Of a DNA stretch of 64,000 nt, positions 11,607-53,487 are shown one piece after another. The translations under genes were made by a program, and so were the position numbers. This DNA is from Ianthella basta. Its lineage: Eukaryota; Porifera; Demospongiae; Verongiida; Ianthellidae. How positions within the stretch are numbered: the first letter of the stretch is position 1; each line of letters starts with the position of its first letter. The notes below the pieces were generated by a model. The model had not been told where the DNA came from. It was given only the letters and a program-made list of their open reading frames with translations, and made no database searches. The stretch is from the NCBI GenBank assembly GCA_964019415.1, contig OZ025871.1, positions 5,702,213-5,766,212 of the forward strand, in the 5' to 3' direction.

Positions 11607-13260
11607 ATGGTGCTGCTGTTCTTCAGGAATGTAGAAGCCTACAATGACCAAATGCAAATTGTACAAGACAATTTCTGCAAGGATCATACAATGAAGTTTG
11701 TAAAGCTTGCAATGGCTCCATTCAAATTAGGTTATGAGAAACAGCAGCAGAGATTTGTTGAAGCAGTGTGCGACCCAGAAGGTGTGGACAAGGTGTTAAC
11801 ACTTGTCAAAGGCAAAGTGAAGTATGATGATCTCCCTGACATGATAAAACAATTCAAGCTCCTAGTCCTTAGTGGTGCTCCTGGTGTTGGAAAGAGCACA
11901 CTAGCACGGAAGTTGTGTCAAGATATATCTAAGAAGTGTAAGCAACATGACTATCAATTGGTGCTTCTGTTGGAGCTGCGGAATCTAATTGGTTCTGTTG
12001 GTAGACCTGAGGAGTTTCAAACCAAACACTTGCTGGAGCACTTCAGTGGCCTGATGTGTGAAGGATGCACACAAGAGATGGTGGCTAGGGCAATTGAAAG
12101 GGACCTTGGTAGAGGAGTGCTCCTCATCCTAGACGGCTATGATGAGTTGTCTGCCCCACTGCGCCAGTGTCCATTTTTCCATCATCTTCTGACACACTCT
12201 CTTCAGTCTCCCCTTTCCAGTTGTGACATTGTACTAACATCCAGGTCAATAGTCACCAGTGAGATATATCAGCACATTGATGAGTCTAAGGCTATTAGGC
12301 ATTTTGTGAATGTTGAGGTGCTTGGATTTGGAAAGGTTGAAATAAAGAATTTTGCTCGGCAATACTTTGAGGAGCAAGACCGACCTGACCTGCTGGACTC
12401 ATTTCTGGATAAGTTGGAGCAGTTTCCCCAAATGAAGGGCCTCCACTCTAACCCAGTGGTGCTGTCTATAATTTGTGTTGTGTACCTATCCCAGGAAAAC
12501 CTCCCCCGTACTCTGACTGAGGTGTATGATGCTTTTATCTGTGAGAAGTTGTTGCTAAATTTAAGGTCTTCAGGCACTCAAGCTGACTCTGTCTTACACC
12601 TTTCTGATGATCATGATTTTTATGAACTCTGCAGCATTGCTTACAACTGTGTTGTTGAACAAAAGGTAATATTTACATCATCAGAACTCAAGGGTCTTTC
12701 ATCAAGGTACTCAAATCGTGAAAGTGGGTGTGGTCTTTTAACAGCACGCCCTGTGGGCAAGTTGAGGTGCACAGTAGCAGCAGTGGACAGCTTCTACTTT
12801 CTCCATCTGACCGTTCAAGAGTTCCTCAGTGCCATCCACATTTCCAGGCAAGATATTTCAGTTCAACAAAAGATCTGGGACAAGTACCTTGGACAGCCCC
12901 ACATGGCTCAAGTGTGGAAATTCTTCTGTGGGTTAACTAAACTAGAGAACTTTGATGCACTTCACCTCACCTCGAAGGTAAAAGACCAGGACTTCTTATT
13001 GCAGTCACTTTATGAGTCACAAAATAGTGATGTGACTAGTGCTGCAATGAAGAATGCTTTCAACGACCACCCAGAAGTGAAGCCAAGGACCCCATACAGT
13101 GCTGTGGCTTATGGTTACTGTCTGCAATACCACAAGAGCATGAAGCAACTCACTGTTGTCTGCCGTAAAGACATTCGAGTTCACATCGGTAATCTTCTCT
13201 CTCCTGTACTCCAGTCAGTTTCTGGATTGCATCTGACGCTCAGTAAATGTCACCCTAAAG
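11607..13260 (+). CDS. NLR-family NACHT exon (plus-strand immune receptor gene)
   Basis: One long open exon encoding the nucleotide-binding core of an NLR-type intracellular pattern-recognition receptor. Visible in the translation: P-loop GAPGVGKST (residues 90-98), Walker B LLILDGYDEL (172-181) with the extra acidic residue typical of NACHT, a sensor-like VLTSRS (209-214), the NACHT-associated helical region NPVVLSIICVVYLS then LPRTLTEVYDAF (282-310), and the winged-helix end FYFLHLTVQEFLSAIHIS (396-413). An acceptor lies at 11605-11606 (TGTATGTAG), so the ATG at 11607 may be internal; a second acceptor CTTCAG ends at 11626. The donor AAAG|GTGAAC after 13260 leaves phase 1, matching the exon at 16091. 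If unspliced, the frame stops at 13271. N-terminal effector (Death/CARD-like) exons were not found upstream. Confidence 0.9.
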
Positions 13261-13893
13261 GTGAACCTTGATGCATGCAACAAATGCTCACACATCCACC
13301 TTGTCTTGATAATTGCACTCGACTTGATCACTTCCTGCCATTTCAGGGTCTATGTATTGCTGATATATGCAAATGTAGTAGCTTCCCTTAGAGCTCATAG
13401 AGAAATATTTGCATGACCTTTTGTTATATTGCATGCGAATTATGCAGTGATGAAGTCCTTGTTGCTGGTAGATTTTAGTTTTTGAAGTACTGAAACAAAT
13501 CTTGAAGAATGTAATTGAGCAACTGATACTGAGAACAAAATGTAGCCGAATGCGTGAGGTACACTCAACTTGTATTTAGGTGAAGAAGCACAATTAACAG
13601 AAAGTGTGAGATTACCGAAGTAGTCAATAGATGGAGGTGCTAATGCATTAGTCAGGCGTCACATGACCCCTCAGCACATGATGGATCAGCTTATGTCTAT
13701 TACATTAATTTGTCCATGCAGAATGCAATTATGCGCTTTTGAATAATGTACTTACTGAGTAACATTATGCATAGGGTTTTGGCTGCAAGCACACAAAAGG
13801 CTTGCTAGGAAGTGCCTTGTAACTATCAACACTTATTGCATCGAATGGCTGATTCAGAGACAGGGACAATCGATGGTTCTTCAATCAGCAACA

Positions 13894-13920
13894 CTACAGT
13901 GCTCCAATCCTGAAGGTTCC
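13894..13920. repeat. inverted repeat arm (mate 14567-14592)
   Basis: ACAGTGCTCCAATCCTGAAGG is the near-exact reverse complement of 14567-14592. Both arms encode (Y)SAPILKVP in opposite directions, so they are inverted copies of a bit of the helicase-like sequence or the ends of an element about 700 bp long. Confidence 0.55.
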
Positions 13921-14537
13921 ACAATGAGATAGCATAGCTATTACTACGCGATGAAAATTTCGAAATTCTTACACAAACAACATTCCTAATGAAAGGGTCT
14001 TCCTTTACTGTGCAATTAAAACCCAAAATAGTTTGTGAAATTGAGCATTTCCAGAAAAAAACATACTTCAGAATGTCAGCCTTAAATTCCCTGAAAATGT
14101 CTAATGTCCATTGCATAATCACTGGTGCATTAGGCACACCATATAGTATAGAGACCTAATGTATATACATGTGGCATGTTATAGTACAACTATCCAGGCA
14201 TCCGCTAAGAGACTATGGGAGCTTAACTCATATTCGCTGGTAAGATCCAATCTAAACACTTTAGGCACTAAAAACACTCTTTAGCAAATAACTTTGCTTC
14301 TAAAGTTTTATGAAGGTGTCTGATTGGGACCAAGATGTACCAAAGGTGTTTCCTTAAAAGTTTTGGATCTTAACTATACTTCCCGCTAGAAATATTACCT
14401 AAAACCATAATTCAATTAAGCATAATTTATTCATAGCATGTGTTACATGACCTGTCCTCCTGCCCACACAAGAAAAATGTGGTCTATCTTGACCCAGAAA
14501 TGTGTACCACAAATTGTTACTAATCATCACAGAGGCA

Positions 14538-14692
14538 CATTACCTCTTTTTCCTCAAAAGCAAATGGAACCTTTAGGATTGGAGCACTGTAGGTTGAATA
14601 CTGTTGGAAAGCATGAAGGCTCTTGCCAAAGCCAGTTGGCAGAACTACAAAAGCATCTTGCCAGAAACAATGCCAACACGACCTGAAGTTGC
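14538..14692 (-). pseudogene. RecQ-like helicase relic (motif I)
   Basis: The minus strand reads NFRSCWHCFWQDAFVVLP, then TGFGKSLHAFQQYSTYSAPI, then LKVPFAFEEKEV. DAFVVLPTGFGKSL is helicase motif I of the RecQ kind (DVFVLLPTGFGKSL.Y). Only this small piece remains and stops follow at once. It lies inside intron 1 of the NLR gene, opposite in orientation. It differs in sequence from the fragment at 10037, so the two are separate captures or relics. Confidence 0.5.
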
Positions 14693-16090
14693 ACTAGCTT
14701 CGTAGCAGAATTACCTAGCAGAATTGCCTAGTCACTGGATGGCTTCTGTCGCAGTGTAGAACACTCTTTGGTCTGCTGCCAATTGTGGATATGAGTACGA
14801 GAATATTTCACACCTTTCCTACAATCTGATTGAGCATACAGCTATTGTTTTGGTGTGTAAAAGTCGCTGTTTTAGACTTAACCTCTTTCGCATGCGGAAG
14901 TGTCATGCGACACCTGACACCTGCCTCCTGATGCATGCATTGCCATTTTCATGAATATACTGTATAGATGACTACTTCTTCACCATGCACATGCACTCTA
15001 TCCATAGTTCCAAAGTCATTGCAGTGATGTTGGAGTCCTTTTGTGATTCCTTCAAACGAGTTTGCTGTAGTTGCTCTTACTGTAACATTGTGCTGCATCA
15101 TGCTCATTAATGTAGATTCACCCAGTTTTCCATCGCAAATGGTAGTGTCCATTTTGAGTGTAGTGATCTCAGGAAGTTGCATGATGCAGCTCTATGCTGG
15201 AAATGGTGGAGAAAGCTTGTAATGTGGCTATTACAGAACCTAAGCCAATAGCAGAAGTAATTTTGGAGTCATCAGGTTTCTCTGTGGTGACCACTTCCAG
15301 CTCTGATTTGTCCCCTTCAGCATTAATTTGTCAGAGATTCAAGCCATAGTGAGCCTTCAGCGTTCTCCCAGCCCAGTATCCATATTTATATACCGAAAGG
15401 TGTATTAGTTTTGTCCCATTACCACGGCAAACAGTGTATTGTTTAGTTGCAAACCTCATCGTAAGAATCACTTACTCTTTACGATCTTGAATTGTGTAAA
15501 GTGCAATATAGATAAGTACTACTGACATTTGAGTATATTGGTTTAATTGTAAGAATGTCAGTGAATCTGTATTGGAACAAATTAGAAAATGCTATTTGTG
15601 TCCTGTAATTATACACAATTATATTTATGTAAAATGTAAACAGTTGCTTATAATAAAATGACGATATTCAAATCTTCATATTTTTTGTATGCCATTGTTG
15701 GTTCATTTTCCTCCTCCATGATCTGTTCAGATTGGAGAGAAGCTGCCGAGAATCTCACAATGCATGGAGATAGACAGGATGCCACAAGTGAATTTTGTCT
15801 TATAACTTACAGATTTGCACGTGTGGCTCTGGGGGTCTTAGTTTTGGGATATGAATAGTGAATAAGTGACTTCACTACTTTCTTAGGCTGTGCTCTAGCA
15901 CTAGTAAGTTATGTAACCATGTATTGTAAGTTTTTTTAGTAACTGTATAATTGGGAGGGTGTAATTATGAGCTAGCTTGAGATTTTAGGATACCATGTAG
16001 AGCTGCATCTATCTATATTGTACATAGTTTTGCTCACAAAGTCTTGCTATGATGTGCATTATGTGGTGCTTCCTTCTGTGTCCCCAACAG

Positions 16091-16209
16091 CTGAACAAAG
16101 CATTTTCACTTTTCACTTAAGTGATGTTGTCCCACTTGATCTAGTAGCTGTGGAACTGATGTACTGCAACAGGGCTGAAGTGAACTGTCTTATTTCAGAC
16201 CCTACACAA
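16091..16209 (+). CDS. NLR exon 2: first LRR-like short exon
   Basis: 119-bp exon (acceptor CCCCAACAG|, donor ACACAA|GTGAGG), phase 1 to phase 0, joining the NACHT exon as ...CHPK-A-EQS. Translation: EQSIFTFHLSDVVPLDLVAV then ELMYCNRAEVNCLISDPTQ. It aligns with the second exon of each later cassette (SVKRVTLSHVPLDLVCGAVD...VEELKCEDIKAPQQ), sharing the VPLDLV core, the C in the next strand and the D-P-Q end. LRR-type spacing of hydrophobic residues is inferred. Length and phase agree with the 131-bp cassette exons (both 3n+2). Confidence 0.7.
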
Positions 16210-16679
16210 GTGAGGCGGTGCAAATCAGCACCATGCACTAGCTGTGCATGTATTGCAAGTATTGATCATTCTGTTAGAACACAGTTGACATGCACAACAG
16301 CATGGTGTGCCATGACTGGTATTATTGTTAGAAAGATATGGCATATTTACACAGTGCACCTCCTTGTAATGGCCTTCTCTTCGCTCTGTCCGTACAATCA
16401 TTTATGTATATGGTATGATTGTTCAACTTAGTCAGCAAGAAACTGATCTGTAAGACATTTCTCTCTCATTTGCCTTCCTTCATCAGTAAAATTAATGACA
16501 ATGATACAACTACTACTGTATAAATGGGAAAGGCAGACAGATGCATGATGATGGGTGATGTGAGGTATAACTGATTCGAATGGCATGGAAGGGGGATTAA
16601 AAATGGCAGCTGCTAATAAAGCTTTTACAAAATTTAAAATCAATGGATGAATATTTAGTAATGATAGAATAGAGATTCA

Positions 16680-18560
16680 TTACCACGTCTGGACATTGAT
16701 AAAGGGGGGATTACTTGAGCGTTAAACACGTGGTACACTTTTTTTACCAACAGGCAAAACGTTTCGGCCCCAAAAGGGCCTTCTTCAGTTGCACAAGAGT
16801 ACAAAAAACAGAACATGCAAGATAAAAGGCAGCAGCAGAATAAATAGGGGATGGCAAGTGCACAAGTGACAGGACCTGATGTGTATGAATTAAATTAATA
16901 AATGAATTTAATGTCAATAAATTGAAATTGTAGTCAAGACGCCATCAGTGCCTGTCACTATTGTGGGGGGGGGGAGGGAAGGCGGCCTTGAGGCAGCCCA
17001 GCAAGGGTTCAGCAACAAACCAGGGTCTAGGTTCATGGCATTTGGAGTGTTCTTAATGTGTAGTGCTTCTTTGACTCTCCTTCTGTACCAGTCCACATCC
17101 CGGTCCACACACGCCGACTCATTCCATTGTATCTTGTGTCCTGTGTTCCACACATGTGTTGCAATGGCATTGTTCGGGTCAGCTTTCAATACGGCTTTCT
17201 TGTGCTCTTCAATACGGGTCTTCATCTGTCTTCCTGTCTCTCCGATGTATACTGAGCCACACTCACAGGGGACCCTGTACACTACACACTTCTGTTCCTC
17301 CTGGGGGGTTGGGGCCTTGACATGAGTGAGGAAGCTTCTTAATGTCCGGGATGACCTGAAGGCTGTCTTGATGTTCAGGGAGCGGCAAACCAGACGAATC
17401 CTCTCACTCAGTCCTTTGACGTAGGGCAGCACCAGCATCTTCTGTGTCTCATCTTCTGTCCGCGTGGAAGGACGTCTGCGCCTTTTGTTGAGTACCCCAG
17501 CCGTGACGGCGTGTGGGTAGCCATTTGCCTGGAATACTCTGGACAGGTGGTTCAGTTCCTCTGCGAGACCATCTCCTGTGCAAAGCTGTTCTGCCCTTGA
17601 CTTGAGGCATGATACCACACTTGTTTTTCACTTGTGGGTGGTGGTGTGAACGGAAGTAGACATACCGGTCAGTATGAGTCTTCTTCCGGTACACAGAGGT
17701 GGAGAGGGAGTCTCCATTCCTCCTGACCAGCACATCAAGGAACGGCAGCTGGTTCTCCTCTTCAACCTCCATTGTGAACTGGATCTTCTCACAGAGATTG
17801 TTCAGATGATTCAGGAAGGCGACCAATTGGGTTCTGCCATGGGGCCATATGATGAAGGTGTCATCCACGTACCTGAGCCAGAGCTTTGGCTCTCTGTCTG
17901 CTGTTACCAATGCCGTTTGCTCGAAGTCTTCCATGAACAGCCCAGCGACGTTTTGCCTTTTGGTAAAAATTCTATCATTGACCGCTCTGAGCGAGCAGCA
18001 GCCAAAGAAGCTTACAGATTGAAGAACTTGGAAGAGAAGCTTGCAAGATACGGCAACCATCTCACCTTCTTGATGCGGTGCAGGAACCACAACATCGTTC
18101 CAAGAGGCCTACTGGTGCCACTCCCCGTGAACACGGCGAAAGCCCAACACATTGCCTGGAGGACAGCAAAGGCTCTACTTAGAGAGCGTATCAAGGAGGT
18201 GAGACAGCAGAAACTCCATCTCAAGAAGCAAGTCGCAACACAAATAGGAACGCCACAAACACTCTCTGATGACACTGGAACTTGTCAACGACTGGAGCAG
18301 TGGGCAAGATGGCATGGCAACAGGGTACACGAGAAAGTGAAGGAGAGACAGAGGAAGAAGTTTGACAACCTAATGCAGGGCAAGAGGTGGGGACAGAGGA
18401 CAAACCTAGACAAGAACAGACTGGTGGTGAACCTCAGCAGCCAACAACTTACTGAAGCACAGCGAGATGTTCTTGCATTAGGCTTGAACTTTGCCACAGC
18501 ATCAAAGAGGATACCGGTAGAAGACATCATTGCCAGAACAGAACATGTATGTATGTGGCC
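16680..18560. mobile_element. Penelope-like element, rearranged and broken
   Basis: A fossil in two opposite pieces meeting near 17.97 kb. The minus-strand piece (about 16914-17970) encodes the C-terminal part of the protein: reverse transcriptase with WLRYVDDTFIIW, then a GIY-YIG endonuclease (VYRVPCECGSVYIGETGRQ, KTRIEEHKKAV, ATHVWNTGHKI). The plus-strand piece (about 17970-18545) encodes the N-terminal region of the same kind of protein (KNLEEKLARYGNHLTFLMRC, NIVPRGLLVPLP, LSSQQLTEAQRDVLALGLNF). The family is Penelope-like, GIY-YIG-bearing (Neptune/Penelope group). Beyond the 3' end of the minus piece is a terminal region with a hammerhead-like motif. It is broken in several places and not functional as it stands. 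Confidence 0.85.
16754..16792 (-). ncRNA. hammerhead-ribozyme-like motif of the Penelope-like element
   Basis: Minus strand: GCAA (stem I), core CUGAAGA, an extra A, stem II GGCCC/GGGCC with a U-rich loop, then GAAAC, triplet GUU and stem I return strand UUGC pairing with GCAA. It has the same architecture as 3283-3318 although the stem sequences differ, so pairing is kept by compensating changes. It lies in the terminal region of the Penelope-like element, where such motifs are known. Confidence 0.65.
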
Positions 18561-18564
18561 AGCG

Positions 18565-19941: not shown

Positions 19942-19961
19942 TGACGTCATTAAAATGGCGG
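19942..19961. promoter_or_regulatory. CRE + ATGGCGG box, module 1
   Basis: A perfect CREB/ATF palindrome TGACGTCA is followed 5 bp later by ATGGCGG in an AAAATGGCGG context (YY1-like initiator). The same pair occurs at the same place in modules 2-5. This is motif-based only; promoter activity is untested. Confidence 0.45.
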
Positions 19962-22286: not shown

Positions 22287-22290
<4 letters not shown>

Positions 22291-22393: not shown

Positions 22394-22974
22394 CATGTTA
22401 GCCTGTATCACTCCCTCGGGAGTGCAAACAGCATGGAAAGAGGGTATTTGTGTGGCATGCTGTCAAGTCCGTCACTGTTGCAATAACGTCCTTCTTTCTG
22501 CAATGACTATCGGTTGAACTAAACTTGCTAATGTTAAAGTATTGTGCAACTGATGTGCATTGCCCATTGTTTGACTCTTCTTTGCTGACTCTGAGCTTTA
22601 GCCTTTAAATGTGTTGCTCATTGTATGTACTCATGTTCTTTGCAGAACTGTCCAATTTTTCCTCTTTGTGTGACCGCTGGTGTGTTGCTTAAGCTACATC
22701 CTTCCAGACTTTCCTTTGTGACTTGTACTGTTCTAATTCCATTTGCACACCCTGCTACCTACACTCAGTCTACGTATTTCTCCTCCTTATACCCAATTTG
22801 TTCCCCTATCTCAAGTCTTCACCAGTCCACATCCCTGCAATGGGGTGACCTATTAGCATAGCTGCTTAGCCTTCACTCCTTCCTCTGTCTCATTGTAAGC
22901 CATCCCTCCTTTCACCACCTCCTGCTCTCGCAGACTGCATATTCTAGATATATGCTCGTGTCTACTTCATGCAG

Positions 22975-23204
22975 AGCCTAAGCCGTGACCTTCTGGACAA
23001 GATGGCTACATCACTAGCTCAGAACAAAGACAATGACAAAGATGGAATTGAGTTGTTTTGATTCCTATGGGAGGTCCACCCTGACACGTAATGAAGATGT
23101 CAAGCTATTCACCCACCACCTCCTGTTGGGCCTCAGCAACAACACTACATTGACAGATTTGTCACTGTGTCTACCAGAGCAGTGCTGGGAGTGGATTTGT
23201 GATG
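22975..23204 (+). pseudogene. LRR cassette 1, exon a (frameshifted)
   Basis: The acceptor (CTTCATGCAG|) and donor (GATG|GTGAGT) are intact, but the exon is 230 bp (3n+2) instead of 3n+1 as in the other cassettes. Compared with cassette 3 (41771-41981) it has one extra A in AACAAAGAC and 18 further bases. In the expected phase it reads SLSRDLLDKMATSLAQNKDN then stops within 30 residues. The downstream part (TLTRNEDVKLFTHHLLLGLS, NNTTLTDLSLCLP) is well kept in another frame. Either this cassette is skipped, or it is dead, or the assembly has an error. The fold expected is LRR (ribonuclease-inhibitor-like ALAQNKTL..L.L). Confidence 0.75.
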
Positions 23205-23741
23205 GTGAGTTGAATGACAGTGTTTGATGTGTCACACTGACCTTGTAAGCTGTGATCATTGTCTGTAAACTGTAATGTGTACAGCTTGTCATACATTGCC
23301 TTTAGTGGTCCAGGCTCTCTGCAACTAGTGCTGGTAATGATAATGACCAGTGCAGATACTGACTTGAAGGGTCTCAAAGCTGCTGTCCTTACAACCTGCA
23401 CTGTGTGCTACCTGGGTCCTAGTGTTTCATATTGCTGTAGCTTTTTAGTTGTCAGTGACAGCTTGATATTGCCCACTTGTGGTTTAATGTACTAATCACT
23501 CACACACCTGTCATTTCACTAGGATACTTACATACATGGGATTAATGCAAGTAGAGATTCACTCACTTGTTGTTGATGTAATAGTAATGGTAGTAGGTAA
23601 TTGTACTTGACTGCCAACCATGGCACAACCCATGCAGTTCTAACTGTGTTGTGGAAGGCTTAATTGTCAATGGTGTGTAAACCTTATAATGGACCACACT
23701 CACACTTGTAGCAGCTCATTTACAAACCTTTCTCTCTGTAG

Positions 23742-23872
23742 GCAATGTGGTGCAGAGGAGTGTGAAAAGGGTCACCTTATCACATGTCCCACTTGATTTG
23801 GTGTGTGGTGCTGTGGATTACTTTGAACATGTGGAAGAACTGAAGTGTGAGGACATCAAGGCCCCACAGCAG
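23742..23872 (+). CDS. LRR cassette 1, exon b
   Basis: 131-bp exon (acceptor CTCTGTAG|, donor CAGCAG|GTACGT), phase 1 to 0. Translation after the split codon: NVVQRSVKRVTLSHVPLDLV then CGAVDYFEHVEELKCEDIKA then PQQ. It is nearly identical to 42519-42649, and the intron before it has the same length (537 bp) as in cassette 3, so modules 1 and 4 parted recently. It pairs with the frameshifted exon a at 22975, so use in a full-length protein is doubtful. Confidence 0.7.
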
Positions 23873-24337
23873 GTACGTTTGTATATATTTTACATCCTTG
23901 TTGTGCATTACGTATGCAGAGTCGGCTAACTCATAAGAGGAATACAGATAACAAACACCTGCTGCCTTTGATTAGCACACATTAATGTAATACAAGCCAG
24001 CATGGCCTTTGGCAGTGCTCGCTCTATCTCATGTTACCGGCTGGACAGTGCAGGCTATCTTGTGCTGTTTGACTGGTTCCAATTGGCCAACATTGGTGGT
24101 ATGCATGGTGCCAACTGCACTTTGGTGACACTGGCTGGAAAGCGTCGATGTTGTCTGCACTGGCCTAGGCCCAACCATGCACATTCGTGCATGCACATAT
24201 ACTCACAAGTGTGTGAGCAACAGCAATGTACAGTAGCTGTAGGTGGCAAGGGCCCTGAGTATCAAAATGTGACTGTTTGTGCACAAGTGGTTTGGCTGGA
24301 ATGCGAGGAACTCACTACACACAGTGTTAGTGTACAA

Positions 24338-25467
24338 TTCAATAACCAAAATGGATACATCTCCAATACTGGAGGTCATCCCTATACTTATACACTGATA
24401 TGTTAGCATGGCAAGTAGTTAGTTATACGATATAGAAGCTATTTAAAATTATCTGTCCATCTTGAGCGTGGTCTTCCTCTTAGTCTCTTCCCCTCCATCT
24501 CTCCAACACAAACTTTCTTTGTTAACCTCTCATTGCTCATTTCTTCCAGTCTAACCCACCACTTCTCCTGCCTTCTCTTCACTGCATCCAAAACACTTTC
24601 TTGTCTCAACTTCTCCCTAATGTCTACATTTCTCATCCGATCCAACCTAGTCACACCTTCGATCCGCCTCAACACCTTCATCTGGGTGGCCTGCACTTTC
24701 AATTGCTGCTGCTTAGATAGAGTCCACGTCTCACAACCGTACAATAATGTTGGCATCACTGTGGCATTCACTACTTTCAGCTTAGTGCTCCTGCTCAATT
24801 CCTTCCTTCTCAGTACTACATCATTCAACCCTCCGATCACCCGTGTTGCACCCCCAATCCTTGCCTCTACTTCCTTCTCCATTCTCCCATCACTACTAAT
24901 CATCACACCCAAGTACGTCATTGCATCTACCTGTTCTATTACCTCTTCATCAATTTTGACTTCACATTCCTCTCTCTTCCTTGCAATCCTCATCACTTTA
25001 GTCTTTCTCCAATTCACCCTCAGCTCCCACCTGCTCAGCACATCACTCATCACCTGTAAATTGTGCTGTAGCCCTTCCACTGATTCTGCCATTACCACCA
25101 TGTCATCCACAAAAAGGAGTAGCCCTACATCACCAGTTGACAACTTCACCTCCCTCAGAAACTGCCTTCTTGCCTCCCTCGTCACGCTGTCGATAAACAC
25201 ATTAAAGAGCCATGGTGAGAGAGTGCAACCCTGCCTCACACCTCTATGCACCTCAAACAACTCTGATTCCATTTCCCCAACTTTCACCTTGGCCCTTCCG
25301 TTGACATACAGTGCCTGAATTGCTCTTAATAGCCTTCCTTTCACCCCATAAGCATATAGCACTTTCCACAACTTTTCCCTGCTTACATTGTCGTATGCCT
25401 TTTCCAGATCCACAAAAGCCATGTATGTTTTCCTATCTTTCTCGATGGTTTTCTCCACAACTTGCTT
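24338..25467 (-). mobile_element. RTE-like LINE, 5'-truncated, with 14-bp TSD
   Basis: Insertion bounded by a perfect target duplication GTGTTAGTGTACAA (24324-24337 and 25468-25481). The sister modules (about 28825, 39372) show the uninterrupted site. The 3' end is at low coordinates. The whole remaining coding part is open (24439-25458), so the insertion is young. The 5' half of the LINE (endonuclease and first RT blocks) is absent, as in typical truncated copies. Confidence 0.9.
24439..25458 (-). CDS. LINE reverse transcriptase, C-terminal 339 residues (RTE-like)
   Basis: Reverse transcriptase of a non-LTR retrotransposon, truncated at its N-terminus by the insertion. It starts within RT motif A (YMAFVDLEKAYDNVSREKLW, residues 12-31), then GVRQGCTLSPWLFNVFIDS (73-91), catalytic LLLFVDDMV (113-121), TYLGVMISSDG, and the thumb/C-terminal region NATVMPTLLYGCETWTL, ending in RLRGRPRSRWTDNFK. 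It is related in sequence to the broken LINE at 56.3-58.1 kb (both keep MRNVDIR-like and RGRPR..W blocks). The clade call (RTE) rests on the GISLLSVPGKVYA-like block of that relative and on the C-terminus. It is not part of the NLR gene. Confidence 0.9.
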   Translation of the reverse strand: MEKTIEKDRKTYMAFVDLEKAYDNVSREKLWKVLYAYGVKGRLLRAIQALYVNGRAKVKVGEMESELFEVHRGVRQGCTLSPWLFNVFIDSVTREARRQFLREVKLSTGDVGLLLFVDDMVVMAESVEGLQHNLQVMSDVLSRWELRVNWRKTKVMRIARKREECEVKIDEEVIEQVDAMTYLGVMISSDGRMEKEVEARIGGATRVIGGLNDVVLRRKELSRSTKLKVVNATVMPTLLYGCETWTLSKQQQLKVQATQMKVLRRIEGVTRLDRMRNVDIREKLRQESVLDAVKRRQEKWWVRLEEMSNERLTKKVCVGEMEGKRLRGRPRSRWTDNFK

Positions 25468-27121
25468 GTGTTAGTGTACAACCATAAACAAACAGTGGGA
25501 AGTGAGGTGAGCCCCACTGGCCACAGTAAACATGTTCAGAAGACATGGCACATGAAGGCAATGAAGAAAGCATAACTTGTGCATTGCCAGTTTGCTGGCT
25601 TCTGATCGAGTGGATCCATGTGTGCACCTTTTGCTAAACATTCACAGTACACATTTGACCACTTGTGCATAGACTACCTTGCTGTGTTCAGTCCAGCACT
25701 CCATTTAGAATGTGAACAGCATACTTCACTCAAACCAACACACAGTGGACATACTGAAGCCATGTGTGCACTTGTGGCCTACAGACTGATTTACCCATGG
25801 TGGCAGCTGGTGTGTAATTATATAATGGGCCTGCACTAATCTTCACAGCAAGCAATATTTGCAGTGTCTAGTACAACTCTCAATACTCTCATTTGTAATG
25901 TGTTCCCTGGGAACAGCATGGACCTCTACTGCCAGTCAGTGCAATTTTGCCTGCCTTGTTGCAGAAGATGGCTTTTATTTTGAGTGCACATTACTTTCTC
26001 AGTTCATCGAAAGTTATTAGGAGCAGTAATGTATTGGTTTAGTGGTAGTACAGTCAAACGTTAGCATAGGCGTTGGAGCACTTTTAAAATGGATGGGTAA
26101 CATTAAAAGTGCTTCGCTCACTTATACATAGATATCTAGCTTTATGCGATTACTTAAGTCTGCTACTAAGTTGGGATGATAAAGAACAGTCTCTGTGAGG
26201 TGTATAATTAACAGTTGACAAGTTTGTAGTACAGTAGTTCAAAGTTGGCCAAATACTCTAGAACTGTGCAGGTCTTTAGGCTGTAAGCTAACTTATTCCT
26301 CTAAGCCTGCTTAGCCTGCTGCTGCATCTCCATTCTGCACTTAAATCATCCACTGGCACTTGGCTTGTGACGATGTAAGGCTGTAGTATGTAACAGTGGA
26401 CACAACGTGTCCACTGTTACATACAACAATGCATGGAATGGCTTCCTACTGTAGCCAGTTTGGTACACCAGCCAAGTTCATCACCATGATCTGGCCTAGG
26501 TCTATTGGAATCGAAAGAACAGAAGTAAAAGCAGCACTTTGGAAGATCTGTACCGACTAGGGCTCCCCAGATCAGCATAGTCCTTGGGCACCAGGACTGT
26601 GAGGTGTGAGAAGACTGAGGGGGCCTGTTCCCTTCTAAGAAAACTGGAGGGGGCACTGACTTGGACACTAACACTGCTACTCTACACTTCACTGAGTAAG
26701 GGTCTATTAAATTGCGTTGGTGGAAAGTAATTATGCAATTCTGTTATGTCCTTTCTCTCTGCCCTCTAATGAGTGCATTGTTGTACATAAGATTATCTGT
26801 AGTTGTCTCCTCTATGTACAGTGCTGCTGAAGGTAAAAGCTAATTTTTCTGCATTTGGAAGTTGTTGTTGAAGTTGATACTTCAGCATACGTAGTGCCTC
26901 TAAAATCAGAGGCACCGGGACATGATAGCTCCAGAGGTTATCACTCAGTCACCTTGTCCACATCCTCTAATCTAGTCATGTTTGGCAAATGCATCTTGTA
27001 CCTTTCCCTTCCATGTGTGCAGCATGCTATGGTGTTTTGTGTCTGCTTAATAAGTGAATGTAGTGTGTTTTTGACATGCCATCTTATGGCCCTGTGTGGC
27101 GCTGTATGTATCCGCTGTTTG

Positions 27122-33006: not shown

Positions 33007-33223
33007 ATACTAAGCCCTGAACTTCTGAGCAAGATGGCTGCAGCATTGGCTCAGAACAAGACATTGAAAGTGCTAAGACTGAATAGTGCTCAGCGGGAAC
33101 ACCTGACTCAATCTAAAGTTATGAAGGAGTTTATTGAACATCTCATGCTGGGTGTCTCTCTGAACACCACCTTGGAGAGAGTGGATCTAGAATTTCCTCC
33201 ATGGCTGTTAGGCCACATCATGT
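33007..33223 (+). CDS. LRR cassette 2, exon a
   Basis: 217-bp exon (acceptor CATTGTAG|, donor CATGT|GTGAGT), phase 0 to 1, open throughout. Translation: ILSPELLSKMAAALAQNKTL, KVLRLNSAQREHLTQSKVMK, EFIEHLMLGVSLNTTLERVD, LEFPPWLLGHIMC. The ALAQNKTLKVLRLNS block is a ribonuclease-inhibitor-type LRR (L..AL..N.TL..L.L), the ligand-sensing half of NLR proteins. It is most like cassette 4 (53241) and less like cassettes 1 and 3. The first codon completes cleanly from a phase-0 junction and joins exon b at 36703 through a split Cys codon. Confidence 0.8.
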
Positions 33224-36702: not shown

Positions 36703-36833
36703 GTGATAATGCACAAGAATTCAGGGAGAGTATCTCTTTGAATCCTGTCCCACTTGATGTTGTGTGTGATGTAGTGAGGATCTTTGAACATGTGAAAGAG
36801 CTTCAGTGTATAAATATCACCAATCCATTGGAG
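36703..36833 (+). CDS. LRR cassette 2, exon b
   Basis: 131-bp exon (acceptor CTTCTGTAG|, donor TTGGAG|GTATGT), phase 1 to 0. After the split Cys codon it reads DNAQEFRESISLNPVPLDVV, CDVVRIFEHVKELQCINITN, PLE. It shares VPLD.VC..V..FEHV.EL.C..I..P with the exons at 23742 and 42519. Together with 33007-33223 it adds 116 residues in frame. LRR-like by pattern; the exact repeat register is uncertain. Confidence 0.8.
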
Positions 36834-41120: not shown

Positions 41121-41770
41121 TCATGTTGGCCTGTATCACTCCCTCAGCATGGAAGAAAGGTGTGTGTCATGCTGTGCATTCCTTCATTGTTGCTTTGCTA
41201 TAATGACCTTCTTTCTGTTGTGACTATACCTGCTAATGTTAAACTATTGCACAACTGATGTGCATTGCCCATTGTTTGACTCTTCATTGCCGATCCCGAC
41301 CTTTGCCTTTAAATGTGTTGCTCATTGTTTCAGACAGCTGTCTGTGGTTGTGTGTATGCCTTTTGGTGTAACTAGAACAAGCAGAGAGAGGGCACAGCTT
41401 TAAGTTTTCTGATCTGCTCATGTTCTGTGCAGAACTGTCCATATTTTCCTCGATCCTTGTGTCATGGTGTGTTGCTCAAGCTGCATCCTTCTAGACTACT
41501 CTTCTAATTGCATTTGGACACCCTATACTACGTATGTATACACTCAGTCTACATATCTCTCCTGCTTATACCCCATTTGTTCCCGAATCTCAAGTCTTCA
41601 CCAGTTCACTTCCCTGTAATGGGTGACCTATTAGCATAGCTGCTTAGCCTTCACTCTTTCCTCTGTCTCATTGTAAGCCATCCCTCCTTTCACCACCTCC
41701 TGCTCTCACAGACTACATATTCTAGATAATTCATATGCTCATGTGTACCTCACCTCCTTGCTCACTGCAG

Positions 41771-41981
41771 AGCCTGAGCTGTGACCTTCTGGACAAGATG
41801 GCTACATCACTAGCTCAGAACAAGACAATAACAAAGCTGAAATTGTTGAGTGGTGACTTAACACCTAATGAAGATGTCAAGCTATTCACCCACCACCTCC
41901 TGTTGGGTCTCAGCAACAACACTACATTGACAGATTTGACACTGAGTCTACCACCACAGTGCTGGGACTGGCCTTGTGATG
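41771..41981 (+). CDS. LRR cassette 3, exon a
   Basis: 211-bp exon (acceptor CTCACTGCAG|, donor GATG|GTAAGT), phase 0 to 1, fully open. Translation: SLSCDLLDKMATSLAQNKTI, TKLKLLSGDLTPNEDVKLFT, HHLLLGLSNNTTLTDLTLSL, PPQCWDWPCDG. It shows two LRR-like stretches (SLAQNKTITKLKLLSG; LSNNTTLTDLTLSLP). It joins exon b through GG|C (Gly). It is the intact version of the frameshifted exon at 22975. Confidence 0.85.
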
Positions 41982-42518
41982 GTAAGTTGAATGACAGTGT
42001 TTGATGTGTCACACTGACCTTGTAAGCTGTGATCATTGTCTGTAAACAGTAATGTGTACAGCTTGTCATACATTGCCTTTAGTGGTCCAGGCTCTCTGCA
42101 ACTAGTGCTGGTAATGATAATGACTAGTGCAGATACTGACTTGAAGGGTCTCAAAGCTGTTCTCCTTACAACCTGCACTGTGTGCTACCTGGGTCCTAGT
42201 GTTTCATATTGTTGTAGCTTTCTAGTTGTTAGTGACGGCATGATATTGTCCACTTGTAGTTTGATGTACTAATCACTCACACACCTGTCATTTCACTAGG
42301 ATACTTACATACATGGGATTAATGCAAGTAGAGATTCACTCACTTGTTGTTGATGTAATAGTAATGGCAGTAGGTAATCGTACTTGACTGCCAACCATGG
42401 CACAACCCATGCAGTTCTAACTGTGTTGTGGAAGGCTTAATTGTCAATGGTGTGTAAACCTTATAATGGACCACACTCAAACTTGTAGCAGCTCATTTAC
42501 AAACCTTTCTCTCTACAG

Positions 42519-42649
42519 GCAATGTGGTGCAGAAGAGTGTGAAAAGGGTCACCTTGCTACGTGTCCCACTTGATTTGGTGTGTGGTGCTGTGGATTACTT
42601 TGAACATGTGGAAGAACTGAAGTGTGAGGACATCAAGGACCCACAGCAG
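42519..42649 (+). CDS. LRR cassette 3, exon b
   Basis: 131-bp exon (acceptor CTCTACAG|, donor CAGCAG|GTATGT), phase 1 to 0. Translation: NVVQKSVKRVTLLRVPLDLV, CGAVDYFEHVEELKCEDIKD, PQQ. With 41771-41981 it gives a 114-residue cassette that starts and ends in phase 0, so it can be spliced in or out without changing frame. Confidence 0.85.
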
Positions 42650-43260
42650 GTATGTGTGTATAATTATATTTTACATCCTTGTGGGGGTTATGCATTATGT
42701 ATGCAGAGTCTGCTAACTCATAAGAGGAATACAGGCAACAAAACCTGCTGCCTTTGATTAGCAAACATTAATGTAAAATATATACCAGCATGGCCTTTGG
42801 CTGTACGTGCTCTGTCTCGTGTCACTGGCTGGACAGTGCAAGCTATCTTGTGTCGTTTGACTGGTTCCAATTGGCCAACATTGGTGGTATGCATGGTGCC
42901 AACTGCACTTTGGTGACACTGGCTGGACAGCGTTGATGTTGTTTGCATTGGCCTAGGCCCAGCCATCCACTTTCGTGCATGCACATATACTCACAAGTGT
43001 GTGTGCAACAGCAATGTGCAGTAGCTGTAGGTGGCAAGGGCCCTGAGTATCAAAATGTGACTGTTTGTGCACAAGTGGTTTAGCTGGCACGCGAGGAACT
43101 CGCAAGTATGCCCTTTGACCCACACACACCAGGGCTGTGATTTGTGAGAAGGTTGAGGGGGCCTGTCCCACTTCTAAGAAACCTGGAGGGGGACACTGAC
43201 TTGGACACTTGGACTTGGACACTGACACTGCTACTCTACACTTCACTGAGTAAGGGTGTT

Positions 43261-46244: not shown

Positions 46245-46264
46245 TGACGTCATTAAAATGGCGG
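46245..46264. promoter_or_regulatory. CRE + ATGGCGG box, module 5
   Basis: TGACGTCATTAAAATGGCGG, as in modules 1, 3 and 4. Confidence 0.45.
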
Positions 46265-47685: not shown

Positions 47686-50600
47686 TCAATCAATAATTCT
47701 AATCTTTCTCTTAAATTCACTAGGATTGTCTAAATCTCTCAATTCTTTAGGAAGCTTGTTCCACTCCTGGCTTGCTCAGAAGGTAAAAGATTTACGATAA
47801 AACTCAGTTTTAACTTTGGGGAGGATCAGGTTGAATTTGCCACGTGTTCTGGTATTACCAATCTGGGCGTTTGTCTTCAAACGTTCTCTGATGGTAATGG
47901 GGGCTCGTCCTGTCATGCATCTGTGCACCATAGCCATTCTCATCAGCTTCCCTCTCTTCTCCAGTGTCTTCCATCCCAAAACCTGCCAAAGTTCCTCACT
48001 AGGAGCTTTGGGAGGCTTTGAAAGTACAATACGCATACCATAGTTCAGGATCCTCTCCAACTCCAGGCGCAACTTCCTTGAGCACTCTAACCATACAGTT
48101 GAACAGTAATCTAGGTGAGGCAAGACAATAGCATTATAGATGCTCCTTTTGATGGTAGTTGGTAGCACATGCTGAAAGCGTCTCAAACTTGCTAAGCCAG
48201 CACAAGCCTTTCTCTTTACCTCTTTCACTTGCTCGTTCTATTGTAACTTATCATCTAACAGGACACCGAGGCATTTTACCACCCTACTCCTCTCTAATTG
48301 TTTCCCATCAATCTTTACCTGTACCTCCATAGTCTCCTGCTCTCTCCTCTTCCTTGATAGAACAAGTAGCTTAGTCTTCTGTACATTTAGATTTAGCTTA
48401 TTGGCTTTCACCCAATTGTCAATTTCCTTTAAATCATTTACCAAACACTGCTCTAAGTCACCCTTGTCTGCCCTCACTACTGACACCGTGGTGTCATCAG
48501 CAAACTGCCTAACATTTCCAGATTGAATAGCCTGTGGCAGATCATTTACATACAGGATAAATAGTAATGGGCCAAGGATTGAACCTTGTGGGACTCCCCT
48601 CTGGATTTCAGCCCACTCCGATTCGGCTGCACCAACACGCACTCTCTGCTTCCTATCACGTAGGTACCCTAAAAACCATCTCATCTCAGCACCATTGACA
48701 CCATACTTGGCTAGCGTCTGTAGCAAAATAGCATGATCTACCATGTCAAATGCTTTGCTTAGATCCATAAAAATGGCACCCACCAGCTCATCATTATCTA
48801 ATGCCTCTCTCCATTCATCAACTAGATTCACCAATACATCTTGAGTAGAATGACCAGGTCTAAATCCAAACTGTGTGGGATGAAGCAGGCTATTCTCTTG
48901 TAGATAGGTGTACAACTGCCTATGTACAAGTCTTTCTAGCACCTTCACAACCACTGGGAGTACCGAAATAGGTCTGTAGTTCCCCACAAGGTCACTTGAT
49001 CCATTCTTTGGCACAGGTGTAACCAGTGCTGCCTTCCATTCACTTGGCAGATCTCCACACTTTAGGCTAGAATTAAACAGTGAAGTCAAACTCTGGCTAA
49101 TTCCACATGCAGTCATGCAAAGGAGTTTACCACTAATCTTGTCAACACCCTTGTTTGGGTCTAACACCTTTAGTAACTTCAATACATCCTCCTCCTCAAT
49201 TTCGCTGAACTTAAAGCTTGAATCACAAGCCTTCAACAACCCTAACACATTGTACATAACCTCCCTAGGGTTCCCATCATTTGTCATCCTAACAATAGAC
49301 GAGAAGAAATCACCAAATTCCTCCGCAATGGCTTGCTCATCTGTTAGTACCTCTGCATGAGTATCTTTCCTTAGTGTCTCAACACCACCTCTGCCCTTTC
49401 CCCCCAACAGCCTATTAATTTCTGTCCAAGTCTTCTTAGTTTTGTTTGCTGACTGAGACTCGGAGAGTGCCCGAAAGTATTGCAGCTTTGCCTTCCTAAG
49501 TTCCAGTGTCACCTTGTTTCTCAACTCTTTATAATGCTTCCAGTCTTCCTCACTTCCAGTCTTCTTAGCTTTCTTACAATGGTAATTTCTTGTCCTCATC
49601 AACACACGTAGTTCACGGTAGTGTTTTGACTCTCACTCTAGCTTTCTTCAAGGGTACATGGGAATCTACAATCTTCCAAAACAACATCTTCCAGTAATCC
49701 CATTTACTGTCCATATCATCAAGTGCCTCCATCACGCCATCATGCCATGGTGCTGCATCTAGCTCTGCTACTAACCTCTCCAGATTGCACTTGCTGAAAC
49801 AACGAACCAACGTCATAGTGTTCACTCCTCTTTTACCACAACCAGTTACAACACCATAAATAAGAGAGTGATCACTCAAGCCAAGCTCTAGACAGCCCAC
49901 TCTATCCAGTACAGCACCAATATCATCTGTAGTGAACATTAGATCAATTTGCGTCCGAGATGTCTGGGTCACCCGAGTGGGTTCCCTTACCATCTGTACA
50001 AGGCCATAATCAGACGTCATGTCTTCAAGCTTAACACACTTAGAATCATTTAGCAACATATCACAGTTGAAATCACCCATTATCACAACAGGGGCCTTCT
50101 CAGCAACTGCCTTTTCAACCATTACCACCATACTATCCATCCAAGAAGCTTTAGCATCTGGTGGTCGATATACATTGCAGATCAAAAGTTTGGTCTTTCT
50201 AAGTTTCACCTCAATCCATAGAATCTCTAGATCAGTATCCTCCAAATCACTCCGTCTTATACTCGTCACACACTCAGACACGTAAACCAGGAGACCACCT
50301 CCTCTACCACTGCCCCTGTCTCTCCTATGCAAACTAAAACCAGCAATAGCCAACTCACCAGTTGGTATATTGTCATTTAGCCATGTCTCACTCAGTCCAA
50401 GCACATGGGCACATATGTGCTCTTGCAGAAAGAGTTGTACCTCGTCCTTCTTGGGTACCAAGCTTCTAACATTTAGATGGTTGATCACTAGGGCATCGTC
50501 AGTCCCCTCCAGGCAGTTTAGCTTCGCAGCCTCAGATCCAGATGGCAAAAGGTGCCGGTTTACCTCAGATGGACTTCTACTGGAGGCGCAGAGACGACAC

Positions 50601-50896
50601 ACTGGCCCAGGATTTCGCTCAACGTCCCCTAAGAGTAGCAACAACCAGTAGCAAGTGGGGATTGTGGCCGACTGTGGCCTTCGAGATCGGTGTTGGAGAT
50701 CGGGACAAAGGTGTGAACGCTGTCCCCACAGGCAATGGACAAAGCGCGAGTGACTCCCACCAGTCAGGGTACGCGGTGCAAGCAATATCTCCACGTTAGG
50801 CGTCTGAGGGATCTGAGGGATCTCGTAAGAAGTAACAGTCTGAATAATAGCAAGACTCATCCATAGAAACGTGCTCGTGAATCGCCATGACGCCAT
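47686..50896 (-). CDS. LINE polyprotein: signal-like leader, 2A-like motif, APE endonuclease, RT
   Basis: Single ORF of a CR1/L2-group LINE. Residues 9-24 form a hydrophobic leader (TFLWMSLAIIQTVTSY). Residues 84-98 read WLLLLLGDVERNPGP, the 2A ribosome-skipping motif (D-V-E-x-N-P-G-P). The APE endonuclease follows: HLNVRSL (140-146), GLSETWL (E170), GDFNCD (274-279), LSDHSL (340-345). Then the reverse transcriptase (from about 49605): YRPISVLPVV, FGFRPGHST, FMDLSKAFDMVDHAILL, GVPQGSILGPLLF, and catalytic QFADD (about 48493-48504). The C-terminus has WNKLPKELRD. Defects seen: one frame change near 49608 (..VKTLP then ELRVLMRTRN), an in-frame TAG near 48236 (KLQ-NEQVKEV) and a TGA at 47776 (SFTF-ASQEWNK). 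So it is a recently inactivated copy. Confidence 0.85.
50603..50647 (-). other. 2A-type translational recoding motif
   Basis: Codes for WLLLLLGDVERNPGP. The invariant part of 2A peptides is D-(V/I)-E-x-N-P-G-P with release between the last G and P, and all invariant residues are present, with the hydrophobic run before it that 2A sequences need. 2A-like motifs are known near the N-terminus of some APE-type LINEs. Function here is not shown. Confidence 0.75.
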
Positions 50897-51403
50897 TTTT
50901 CCATTTATACGTTGCTATCTCTAGGTTTGAACAGTAATCATTCTTCTTGCTGCGACATAGAATTAGTAGTGCAATTTATTTCCTGTTCCCACCAGTCCTT
51001 CATCTCTTATTCCATTAATTCATTGCAATCCCGCCCTAACTCCCTTTCTGACCTTGTGCATAAGCTAGCAGTTGTGTGAGTATTTGGTATGTCTGGTATC
51101 CCACTCTAACATATTCAGAAGACATGGCACATAGAGGCAACAAAACAGTATAACTTGTGCATGGATGGCCACTTTACTGGCTTCTTATTTAGTAAACCAT
51201 GTGTGCACTTGTGGCCTACTGACTGATTTACCAGTAGTGGCAGCAGGTGTGTTATGGATTGTGCCTGTATTACAGGAGATTGATCTTCAGCTACAGAGAA
51301 TGGCTTCCATTTAGGGTGCCCTTTGTTTTCTGAGTTACTGAAAGATTAGGAGCTGTATATGTGCATGCATTGTAGTGCTATAATAGTTGTACATAATTAC
51401 TAT

Positions 51404-51560
51404 GTCAAGTCTAATGAAAGTCACAACTCGAAAGAAATGTAGGCGAAGAAAGGATAATTGACACCAGCTGGTATTGAACCCGGGACAGTTTACGTCCTAT
51501 TGCGGAGTTTCAGCAGCCCAAGCTAACCAACCAAGCCAGAACAATTCACCCTTCCTTGCC
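51404..51560 (-). mobile_element. tRNA-like SINE, copy 1
   Basis: The minus strand contains an A-box-like TGGCTTGGTTGG and, about 60 bp later, a perfect B box GGTTCAATACC. It is flanked on the plus strand by GTCAAGTCTAATGAAAGTCA and CAACTCGAAAGAAATGTA, which recur at 51768. Internal Pol III promoter boxes and repetition argue for a tRNA-derived SINE, not a tRNA gene, since a proper acceptor stem is not seen. Confidence 0.55.
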
Positions 51561-51759
51561 TTATAGGCCAGTTTGGAACAATGTAGTGGCTCAACCAGCC
51601 TCGAAGGTGTGCCAGCAACTGCTGCCACTTAGAACCTATGTATAACAAGTCAGTACAGAACAATGGACCTGAATGAGCGGGCTGCTGACTGCAGCCACTA
51701 ATCAACCCGGTACTGTGCTCCTATTCTATTTTGTATGTAAGATAAATGAGTCCAATATA

Positions 51760-51962
51760 ACCATGTCAAGTCTAATGAAAGTCACAACTCGAAAGAAATG
51801 TACGAAACAAAGGGAAGATTGGCACCAGCTAGCATCAAAACCGGGAAAACTTACGCCCTATTGCGGGGTTTCAGCAGCCCAAGCTAACCAACCAGTTCAG
51901 AACAATCCAATTTTTCCCTTCCCTGCCTACATTTCTTTCGAATTAGACTTGCTACGGTTGCA
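51760..51962 (-). mobile_element. tRNA-like SINE, copy 2
   Basis: Second, more diverged copy (TGGTTGGTTAGCTTGGGC kept; B box changed to GGTTTTGATGC). Its outer parts are inverted relative to each other (CTCGAAAGAAATGTA at the left, TACATTTCTTTCGAA at the right, with CAAGTCTAAT/ATTAGACTTG outside). Confidence 0.5.
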
Positions 51963-53240
51963 ACCGACTCGTTTATCTTATATACACATGCATAAATATT
52001 ATATAGTCAAATGTTACCGTGTCAAGTAATGCCTTGTTGATCAGCCTGTACTGTATACTTGGATACTAACACTGCTGCCAATGCACAGAGTAATGGTCTA
52101 TGAATTTTGCTCACAGTAATTATGCAATTCTTTTATGTCCCTTCTCTCTGCACTCTAATGAGTGCATTTCGTTGGACACAAAGAAATGCTGAGGGTTTAC
52201 GTAATTTGTGTAGATATGAGTTGAAAAGTAGAGCCAGTGTTTGTCTCTCTATTTGTAGTGCTGCTTTAGGATTTCAGTCATTATCATCTTTGATCAACTT
52301 TGGCAAATAAGTAGTTGTTCTTAGTATGAATCAGTAAAGTTATGCAATTTCAGTGGTGGACCTGAAATCAGAATTAAGTACTGGGACATGATAGCTCCAG
52401 AGGGTATCACTCAATCGCATTGTCAGCATCCTCTAGTCATGTCTAGCGCATCTTATAACGTCTGCAGAATGCTATTAGTTGTTTGTCTCTGTCCATAGGA
52501 TCATATATCTATGGTCTGTCCTTAATAAGTGACTTTACTATGTTCCTGACAAGCCACCTTTTGTCAATGTATCAGTAGTGGGAGACCAAAAACATGCTCA
52601 CGCTGGACTGTATACCAAATAGTAGGAAATATTAGCTTTCACAAAGTTTGGTGGATTTAACATGAAAAGCTATTGTCTGGTTTTAAATTTGGCAGATTCT
52701 ATGTCCAAAATTCTGATGAAATCATGGAATTTGACAACGATGGAGGACCATTGGCTTTGGCTTCATGTTGTCACAGTAGCATACCTTCTGATCTTAGCTC
52801 TCTTTTGTCAAGGGGCACTCTCACGCTGTGCTTCTGTCCAGCCTACATTCACATCCTCATCATGTACAGGAGCTTGCCCTCACAGTGTGCACATTCGTTC
52901 ACCTGTTAGTTCTCTCCCTATGAGAGAGCACCTTGCTTGAGCTCTACTAATTTCCTCTGTAGCTAGACGCTCAGGTCCATATCAAATGTGAATGTATACT
53001 CATTGACTGCACTTTAATGGAATCGCCTACGCAACATACTTTGTACACGGACAGAAATATTGGTGAGGAGTTAAATGTGATGGATTTTTCATGATCTGCC
53101 TAACCATCAAATTAACCCCACCAATACTTCCCACTAAATGGTACTTCCTAAAGTCTCTGTCTGAACCATGTGAAACTTCTTTGACACTAATGAAGTGCCT
53201 AATTATTGCTACATGCAACTTTATCTTTCTTTCAATGTAG
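51963..53240. other. decayed module start before cassette 4
   Basis: Weak similarity to the module (TACTGGGACATGATAGCTCCAG, about 52380; CTTAATAAGTGACTTTAC, about 52522), and, closer to the exon, to the upstream region of cassette 2 (AATCGCCTACG, about 53022 against 32769). An open stretch at 52673-52810 (FGRFYVQNSDEIMEFDNDGG) is not a family I recognise. Confidence 0.4.
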
Positions 53241-53487
53241 ACACTAAGCCCTGAGCTTCTGATAAAGATGGCTACAGCATTGGCTCAGAACAAGACATTG
53301 AAAGTGCTGGATCTGTCTAGTGATGAGCAGCATAGTTTTCTGTTGGGACTACAGGCTAAAGGAGACCTGACTCAGTATATCGCTTTGAAGCAGTTTATTG
53401 AACATCTCATGCTGGGTGTCTCTCCAAACACCACCCTGGAGAGAGTGAAGCTGAACTTCCCCCCCTGGTTGTCAGGTCAAATCAAGT
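53241..53487 (+). CDS. LRR cassette 4, exon a
   Basis: 247-bp exon (acceptor TTCAATGTAG|, donor CAAGT|GTGAGT), phase 0 to 1, fully open. Translation: TLSPELLIKMATALAQNKTL, KVLDLSSDEQHSFLLGLQAK, GDLTQYIALKQFIEHLMLGV, SPNTTLERVKLNFPPWLSGQ, IKC. It is the longest exon a, with 10 more residues than cassette 2 between the two LRR-like blocks. Its exon b is expected beyond the right edge: the intron is homologous to the 3.5-kb intron of cassette 2 and is further stretched by two LINEs. Confidence 0.8.

Follow-up and report, generated by a model that had tools for sequence, protein, structure and literature searches.

A probable germline array of NACHT-LRR receptor genes with two-exon cassettes in the sponge Ianthella basta

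Organization of the locus

The stretch of DNA analysed here (in the following: the window) comprises 64,000 nucleotides of the sponge Ianthella basta (GenBank assembly GCA_964019415.1, contig OZ025871.1, hereafter C4) and corresponds to C4:5702213-5766212; the genome searched consists of 209,087,449 bases on 96 contigs. Positions without prefix are window coordinates, and C4 positions are those on the window's own contig. The window carries part of a gene for a putative NLR (i.e., a receptor with a NACHT domain and leucine-rich repeats, LRRs), in which a long NACHT exon is followed by LRR exons of two kinds, a and b, paired into cassettes of type A or type B:

11607-13260, plus strand: NACHT exon of the receptor (PF05729, NLRP3 as structural match), ending in phase 1 with donor AAAG/GTGAAC
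16091-16209, plus strand: b0, first b-type LRR exon, phase 1 to 0, recognised by splice sites, frame and alignment with other b exons
22975-23204, plus strand: a1x, A-type exon a, broken, 230 bp, one base out of frame compared to its relatives
23742-23872, plus strand: b1x, A-type exon b, intact, 131 bp, phase 1 to 0
33007-33223, plus strand: a2, B-type exon a, 217 bp, phase 0 to 1
36703-36833, plus strand: b2, B-type exon b, 131 bp, phase 1 to 0 (a2 and b2 together 348 bp)
41771-41981, plus strand: a3, A-type exon a, 211 bp, phase 0 to 1
41982-42518, plus strand: a-b intron of the A cassette a3/b3, 537 bp, between cassettes conserved above the exons
42519-42649, plus strand: b3, A-type exon b, 131 bp, phase 1 to 0 (a3 and b3 together 342 bp)
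53241-53487, plus strand: a4, B-type exon a, 247 bp, phase 0 to 1

The NACHT exon matches the Pfam family PF05729 with an E-value of 6.2e-19 (68.9 bits, cut-off 26.7) and, in the Protein Data Bank (PDB), NLRP3 with an E-value of 1.3e-7. It possesses the NACHT NTPase domain expected of an NLR, and its Pfam matches include neither a ROC nor a COR family, i.e., the core of a ROC-COR GTPase was not found.

Concerning an earlier note on this DNA, coordinates and phases were recomputed and agree: the NACHT exon ends in phase 1, the exon at 16091 runs from phase 1 to 0, the later a exons run from 0 to 1 and the two visible b exons from 1 to 0, with sums of 348 and 342 bp. The exons that it named are right, but its list missed the cassette a1x/b1x (22975-23872), such that not all cassettes are intact. 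Its description of the locus as an NLR gene falls short of the extent of the locus, which is one unit of an array of 4.35 Mb (see below). The duplication that it saw around the cassettes is real (22630-24313 and 41417-43101 share 89% identity, and further matches exist upstream of the a exons), but the module size of 3-9 kb holds loosely, with B-type a and b exons lying between 2.4 and 20.5 kb apart.

In a1x, a short A run contains one additional base, and because of this base the sum of a1x and b1x (361 bp) is not divisible by three. Compared to a3/b3, this cassette is 96.6% identical in the intron, 95.4% in exon b and 91.4% in exon a. A rescue of a1x via the nearby AG at 23017 was rejected by eye, as this site has no pyrimidine tract and the conserved start would be lost.

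The unit continues beyond the window. The match to b4, the partner of a4, starts at C4:5770679 (window coordinate 68467) and completes a cassette of 378 bp; a fifth cassette lies at C4:5776402/5777152, and two LRR-like cap exons are found at C4:5778692 (c1, 93 bp long and apparently in phase 0 at both ends) and C4:5780535 (c2), in a block that is 96% identical between two adjoining units. The next NACHT exon starts at C4:5821038. The first of the five cassettes is broken, the NACHT exon and the other four cassettes are open, and the phases fit at every junction from the NACHT exon over b0 and the intact cassettes to c1. The exon b0 itself probably completes an LRR that starts at the end of the NACHT exon.

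An acidic open frame of 166 amino acids with the motif VVIDLSDD, situated at C4:5783110-5783607, is nearly identical in two units and has 39 matches including fragments, two of them on contig C16 and one on contig C51. It is perhaps the C-terminal tail of the receptor.

The array on contig C4

For the search with the window's NACHT exon as query, 78 of 443 candidates were scored, and for each of the a and b exon searches at most 150 of 205-332 candidates, such that all counts are lower bounds; for the map of the array, a and b matches were merged from hand-entered positions. The NACHT search yielded at least 79 match rows, 57 of them on C4 (56 exons, one being split over two rows) and 22 on C2, C11 and C1. 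The exons on C4, at least 56 in number, are all situated on the plus strand, head to tail, from 3.97 to 8.32 Mb, and comprise 23 N-type exons (88-100% identical to that of the window) and 33 M-type exons (53-57%). Internal stops occur in three of the 56; the other 53 are free of them.

At least 166 a-b pairs (117 of A-type and 49 of B-type) exist within the array, with exon a always before exon b. Seven lone B-type b exons follow directly after a NACHT exon, i.e., at the same place as b0 in the window, and an additional b match is found in intervals 0 and 32, whereas no a-b pair was detected in interval 49. After the cap, intervals 30, 31 and 49 contain A-like exons with 47-50% identity to a3 (C4:6388803, 6532756 and 7909923). 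The search with c1 gave 59 matches (58 on C4, one on C51), that with c2 gave 68 (61 in the array, one on C51 and six weak ones elsewhere). Exactly one c1 is present in 54 of the 56 NACHT intervals; the other two possess two c1 and hold units whose own NACHT exon was not found. Exactly one c2 is present in 51 of the 56 intervals. Altogether, the map contains 58 units with 0-9 detected cassettes each, exhibiting 19 orders of A and B besides the unit with none detected. Together with this map, the occurrence of one c1 per NACHT interval provides the main evidence for assigning the cassettes to the NACHT gene and for a variable cassette number. A copy of C4:4653426-4675700 (4.65-4.68 Mb) with equal spacings and scores at C51:33679-55954 probably represents another haplotype or a contig present in duplicate and for this reason shows no variation.

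The NACHT exon might, however, end its own transcript at the stop codon at 13271, with the cassettes belonging to other genes. An in-frame TGA is indeed situated at 13269-13271, in the intron just after the donor; this donor (GTGAAC) deviates from the consensus, and both features recur in all eight N-type copies compared, seven of which have no internal stop. In addition, no clear junction between the NACHT exon and the first b exon was found in an M-type unit. Against such a separation, NACHT exon, cassettes and one cap recur together on a single strand in 54 of 56 intervals, and in the window's unit all phases fit along the series of NACHT exon, b0, intact cassettes and c1. We therefore regard separate transcripts as very improbable.

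Outside the array, at least 102 strong Pfam matches to NACHT were obtained among 469 candidates, often clustered; further NACHT genes are located on C2, C4 (outside the array), C5, C8, C10, C17, C18 and C19. On C2, a related family occurs on the minus strand, with a-like exons of 41-52% identity. A pattern search of viral contigs for related loci gave two matches, neither of them a relative, and further pattern scans of genome contigs and of viral contigs gave none in either set.

Frame neutrality of the cassettes

Base by base, 37 of the 117 A cassettes (from units 0-14, 21 and 22) and 12 of the 49 B cassettes (eight of them chosen among the better-scoring matches) were read. Canonical structure and a sum divisible by three were found in 46 of these 49 (34 of 37 A, 12 of 12 B), with overall lengths of 342-393 bp: canonical A cassettes measure 342, 345, 348, 360 or 363 bp and B cassettes 348, 378, 384 or 393 bp. 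Of the three non-canonical A cassettes, one (C4:4353456) differs solely by a GTGAAT donor, the second (C4:4726147) possesses the same donor and has lost the acceptor of exon b, and the third is the window's cassette with a1x, which is out of frame. The length of an intact a exon leaves a remainder of 1 on division by three and that of an intact b exon a remainder of 2, such that neutrality exists only for the pair; preservation of the frame by a single exon, as in the modular LRR exons of human type, was not found. An origin of the cassettes as chance open frames was rejected on account of their order, their splice sites and their 166 recurrences.

As duplicates inherit their phases, insertions and deletions provide a sharper test than phase. 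Among the 34 canonical A cassettes, all six length variants of exon a are divisible by three, compared to six of 21 variants of the a-b intron (Fisher p 0.003). These values bear on a further possibility, namely that the array is mostly the product of repeat-driven expansion, with decaying cassettes of little function. Retroelements and repeats are present in the introns of the window, and broken parts exist (a1x, C4:4726147, and the internal stop in three of 56 NACHT exons). Nevertheless, 46 of 49 cassettes are canonical, 53 of 56 NACHT matches are free of stops, exon a varies only in threes, and changes in the exons focus on the LxLxx positions (see below). Moreover, pN/pS of the NACHT exon, used as a control in eight N-type copies, amounts to 0.20, which shows purifying selection on NACHT among the copies compared. 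Mere expansion with decay hence appears a poor explanation, to which we give very little weight.

Hypervariability of the LRR cassettes

By eye, each cassette reads as about four LRRs in LxLxx register. In LRRs, the LxLxx residues face the concave side. Among 34 aligned A cassettes, mean entropy is 1.74 bits at 12 exposed codons and 0.38 bits elsewhere (reached in 0 of 100000 permutations), the exposed positions, in or after each LxLxx core, having been picked after the alignment was viewed. At these codons, the first, second and third positions differ in 0.43, 0.33 and 0.17 of the comparisons, compared to 0.076, 0.065 and 0.074 at the other 102 ungapped codons. Divergence in the a-b intron (29 A cassettes with an intron under 600 bp) is 0.036, and in 404 of 406 pairs of these 29 cassettes the exons diverge more than their own introns. 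The scaffold of the cassettes is conserved, the loop after the first strand varies in length and is hypervariable, and all 34 variable haplotypes are distinct. Diversifying selection is the simplest reading of the pattern at the exposed codons, and the hypervariability most likely results from selection for diverse ligand binding.

The a-b intron of A cassettes is mostly close to 537 bp long. Between cassettes (41982-42518 and the introns of 28 others), its divergence of 0.036 lies below that at fourfold sites of low-entropy exon codons (0.067).

This conservation, which might be expected of an element controlling splicing, bears on the possibility that cassettes are alternatively included within one unit, such that a single gene would encode a multitude of receptors, with a1x and other broken cassettes being skipped. 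Symmetric phases (0 to 0) of intact cassettes would allow this, the window's unit keeps an open NACHT exon and four open cassettes despite its broken first one, and precedents are described for human NLRP3 (PMC6642158) and for ROCO genes of brown algae (PMC11378527). However, duplication alone also leaves symmetric phases, and the splice sites are alike and strong in 34 of 37 A and in all 12 B cassettes, without sign of weak, regulated sites. Combinatorial inclusion of cassettes is thus a conceivable, if rather doubtful, explanation.

Possible exchange between units

Units 30 (with N-type NACHT) and 31 (M-type) share the 3' order B-A-B-B-B-c1-c2. Four of their six spacings agree within 4%; for the remaining ones, the difference amounts to about 72% and 23%. 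In the second B cassette, exon b is identical between both units and exon a differs at four bases, three of which change residues and lie within the variable stretch. The variable block LKLLSG..DLT occurs twice in unit 3 and also in units 11 and 22; another, MELSCFDSYGRSTLT, is found in a1x and in unit 10. The a-b introns are arranged star-like around one copy. In Mantel tests between variable blocks, H1-H3 was the only one of six pairs below 0.05 (r 0.22, p 0.01).

Other reading frames in the window

After a4, a long non-LTR retroelement occupies 58398-63045 on the minus strand, with a frame of 1299 amino acids that contains an endonuclease and a reverse transcriptase (RVT_1, E-value 1.9e-44) and a separate PHD-finger frame upstream. 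Remnants resembling reverse transcriptase or endonuclease were seen by eye at 47776-50914, at 24439-25470 (minus strand) and at 56932-57402 (plus strand). Frames at 16914-18108 on the minus strand adjoin b0; a GIY-YIG-like stretch in them suggests a Penelope-like element. A fragment of a DEAD-box helicase, presumably RecQ-like, is situated at 9992-10270 (PF00270 with 22 bits, the cut-off being 26).

Interpretation

The locus probably belongs, as one unit among about 58 NLR genes, to a germline array that is diversified by the number of cassettes and by hypervariable contact residues; comparison of the units shows that the receptors encoded differ in length and order of their LRRs. As a rule, a unit would consist of one long NACHT exon, a stack of two-exon cassettes and the shared caps c1 and c2, with a single transcript joining NACHT exon, intact cassettes and cap. 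Since intact cassettes have phase 0 at both ends and a length divisible by three, complete cassettes, singly or in runs, could be added, removed, rearranged or transferred to another gene with the frame kept. Repeat-rich introns may have mediated changes in their number, via unequal crossing-over and duplication of blocks, and binding of a ligand by the LRR stack would presumably lead to oligomerisation via NACHT.

The expandable array proposed in the earlier note is strongly supported by the 58 paralogous units with common NACHT exons and caps, 0-9 detected cassettes and 19 orders; its varied recognition surface is supported by the hypervariability at the LxLxx positions. Lack of a frame penalty holds for whole intact cassettes, but a1x and C4:4726147 would break or alter the message if included. 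Unequal crossing-over is plausible and agrees with the map; the test for recombination within cassettes (PHI) was not significant (p 0.14), for which reason exchange within cassettes remains inferred.

Besides this test, several observations weigh against the interpretation. Cassettes from the same unit are not significantly closer in their introns than those from different units (22 pairs, p 0.096). Pfam models of LRRs did not match the spliced cassettes, and of five PDB matches to a profile of ten cassettes one was convincing (an LRR protein chain, E-value 1.4e-4, with no single stretch below 0.1); the others were weak, i.e., two LRR chains (0.14 and 1) and two non-LRR proteins (0.82 and 0.91). 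In a single-sequence search, the best LRR match reached an E-value of 0.055. The AlphaFold model of exon a alone, based on 31 aligned exons, is poor (helix, short strand, helix, short strand, with a pLDDT of 56.5, too low for use). The choice of the exposed positions from the alignment itself is a further weakness, and dN/dS over all codons is 0.92, i.e., not above 1. Third positions at the exposed codons are raised over the intron (0.17 vs. 0.036), such that local conversion or a higher mutation rate may contribute besides selection. Finally, an N-terminal effector exon (Death, CARD, Pyrin) was not recognised by eye in the upstream blocks shared with the next unit, for which no family search was made. 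Most NLRX of sponges likewise have no identified N-terminal effector domain (PMC12909245).

A more far-reaching possibility, which we consider unlikely, is a combinatorial receptor system. Regulated splicing would then select the cassettes, or else read-through, or somatic recombination between nearly identical introns, would join cassettes of neighbouring units, and every cell or individual would express a set of LRR stacks of its own, mounted on NACHT engines that are shared. If I. basta lacks adaptive immunity, as its NACHT genes suggest, the array would constitute a tangible genomic plan for recognising many ligands: signalling exon and cap stay fixed, and hypervariable cassettes of four LRRs are stacked in countable numbers. 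Differences in cassette number between individuals, choice in splicing, and exchange between receptor genes driven by repeat-rich introns thereby become accessible to testing.

Comparison with known systems

Diversity arising from modular repeats or cassettes is known from the lamprey VLRs, which are assembled somatically, and from Dscam of arthropods, which is diversified by splicing; in the array of I. basta, diversity is probably encoded in the germline. ROCO receptors of brown algae with shuffled LRR exons were reportedly described by Zambounis in 2012. Dscam is also named in a paper on such algal genes (PMC11378527), according to which in-phase LRR exon arrays are shuffled and positive selection acts on the concave face. 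Like these ROCO genes, the sponge array consists of in-phase LRR exons; its diversity concentrates at the LxLxx positions, which would be expected to face the concave side. There are, however, differences: the algal genes possess a ROC-COR GTPase and one 72-bp phase-2 exon per LRR, whereas NACHT and two-exon cassettes are found here, in an animal; and alternative splicing is documented in the alga, whereas it is no more than conceivable in the sponge.

Among the NLRs of animals, zebrafish possess nearly 400 NLR-B30.2 genes, mostly on one chromosome arm, with exon shuffling between groups and a largest exon that holds NACHT and its flanking domains (PMC4852459). Positive selection is described there for B30.2 and not for the LRRs, whereas variation in the sponge array is found in the LRR cassettes. 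In the sponge Dysidea avara, large NACHT-LRR families exist, with 2-4, 7-22 or 15-30 LRRs according to group (PMC12909245); the main text of that paper contains no exon, intron or splice terms. Within the titles and beginnings of abstracts covered by our literature search (most subscription papers being beyond its reach), no animal NLR array of two-exon cassettes was described.

In human NLRs, e.g., NLRP3, LRRs are encoded by repeated exons that preserve the frame, as exon skipping requires (Hoss et al. 2019, PMC6642158). There, the single exon is neutral (171 bp with two LRRs, or one LRR), whereas in I. basta neutrality is confined to the pair of a and b with about four LRRs; furthermore, the units of the sponge array differ in their detected cassettes (0-9), and the residues of the beta strands are hypervariable. 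The principle is thus already known from human NLR exons and from ROCO genes of brown algae, but the form found here looks new, since neutrality of the pair only, a wide range of cassette numbers in one array, and NACHT combined with hypervariable LRR cassettes set it apart.

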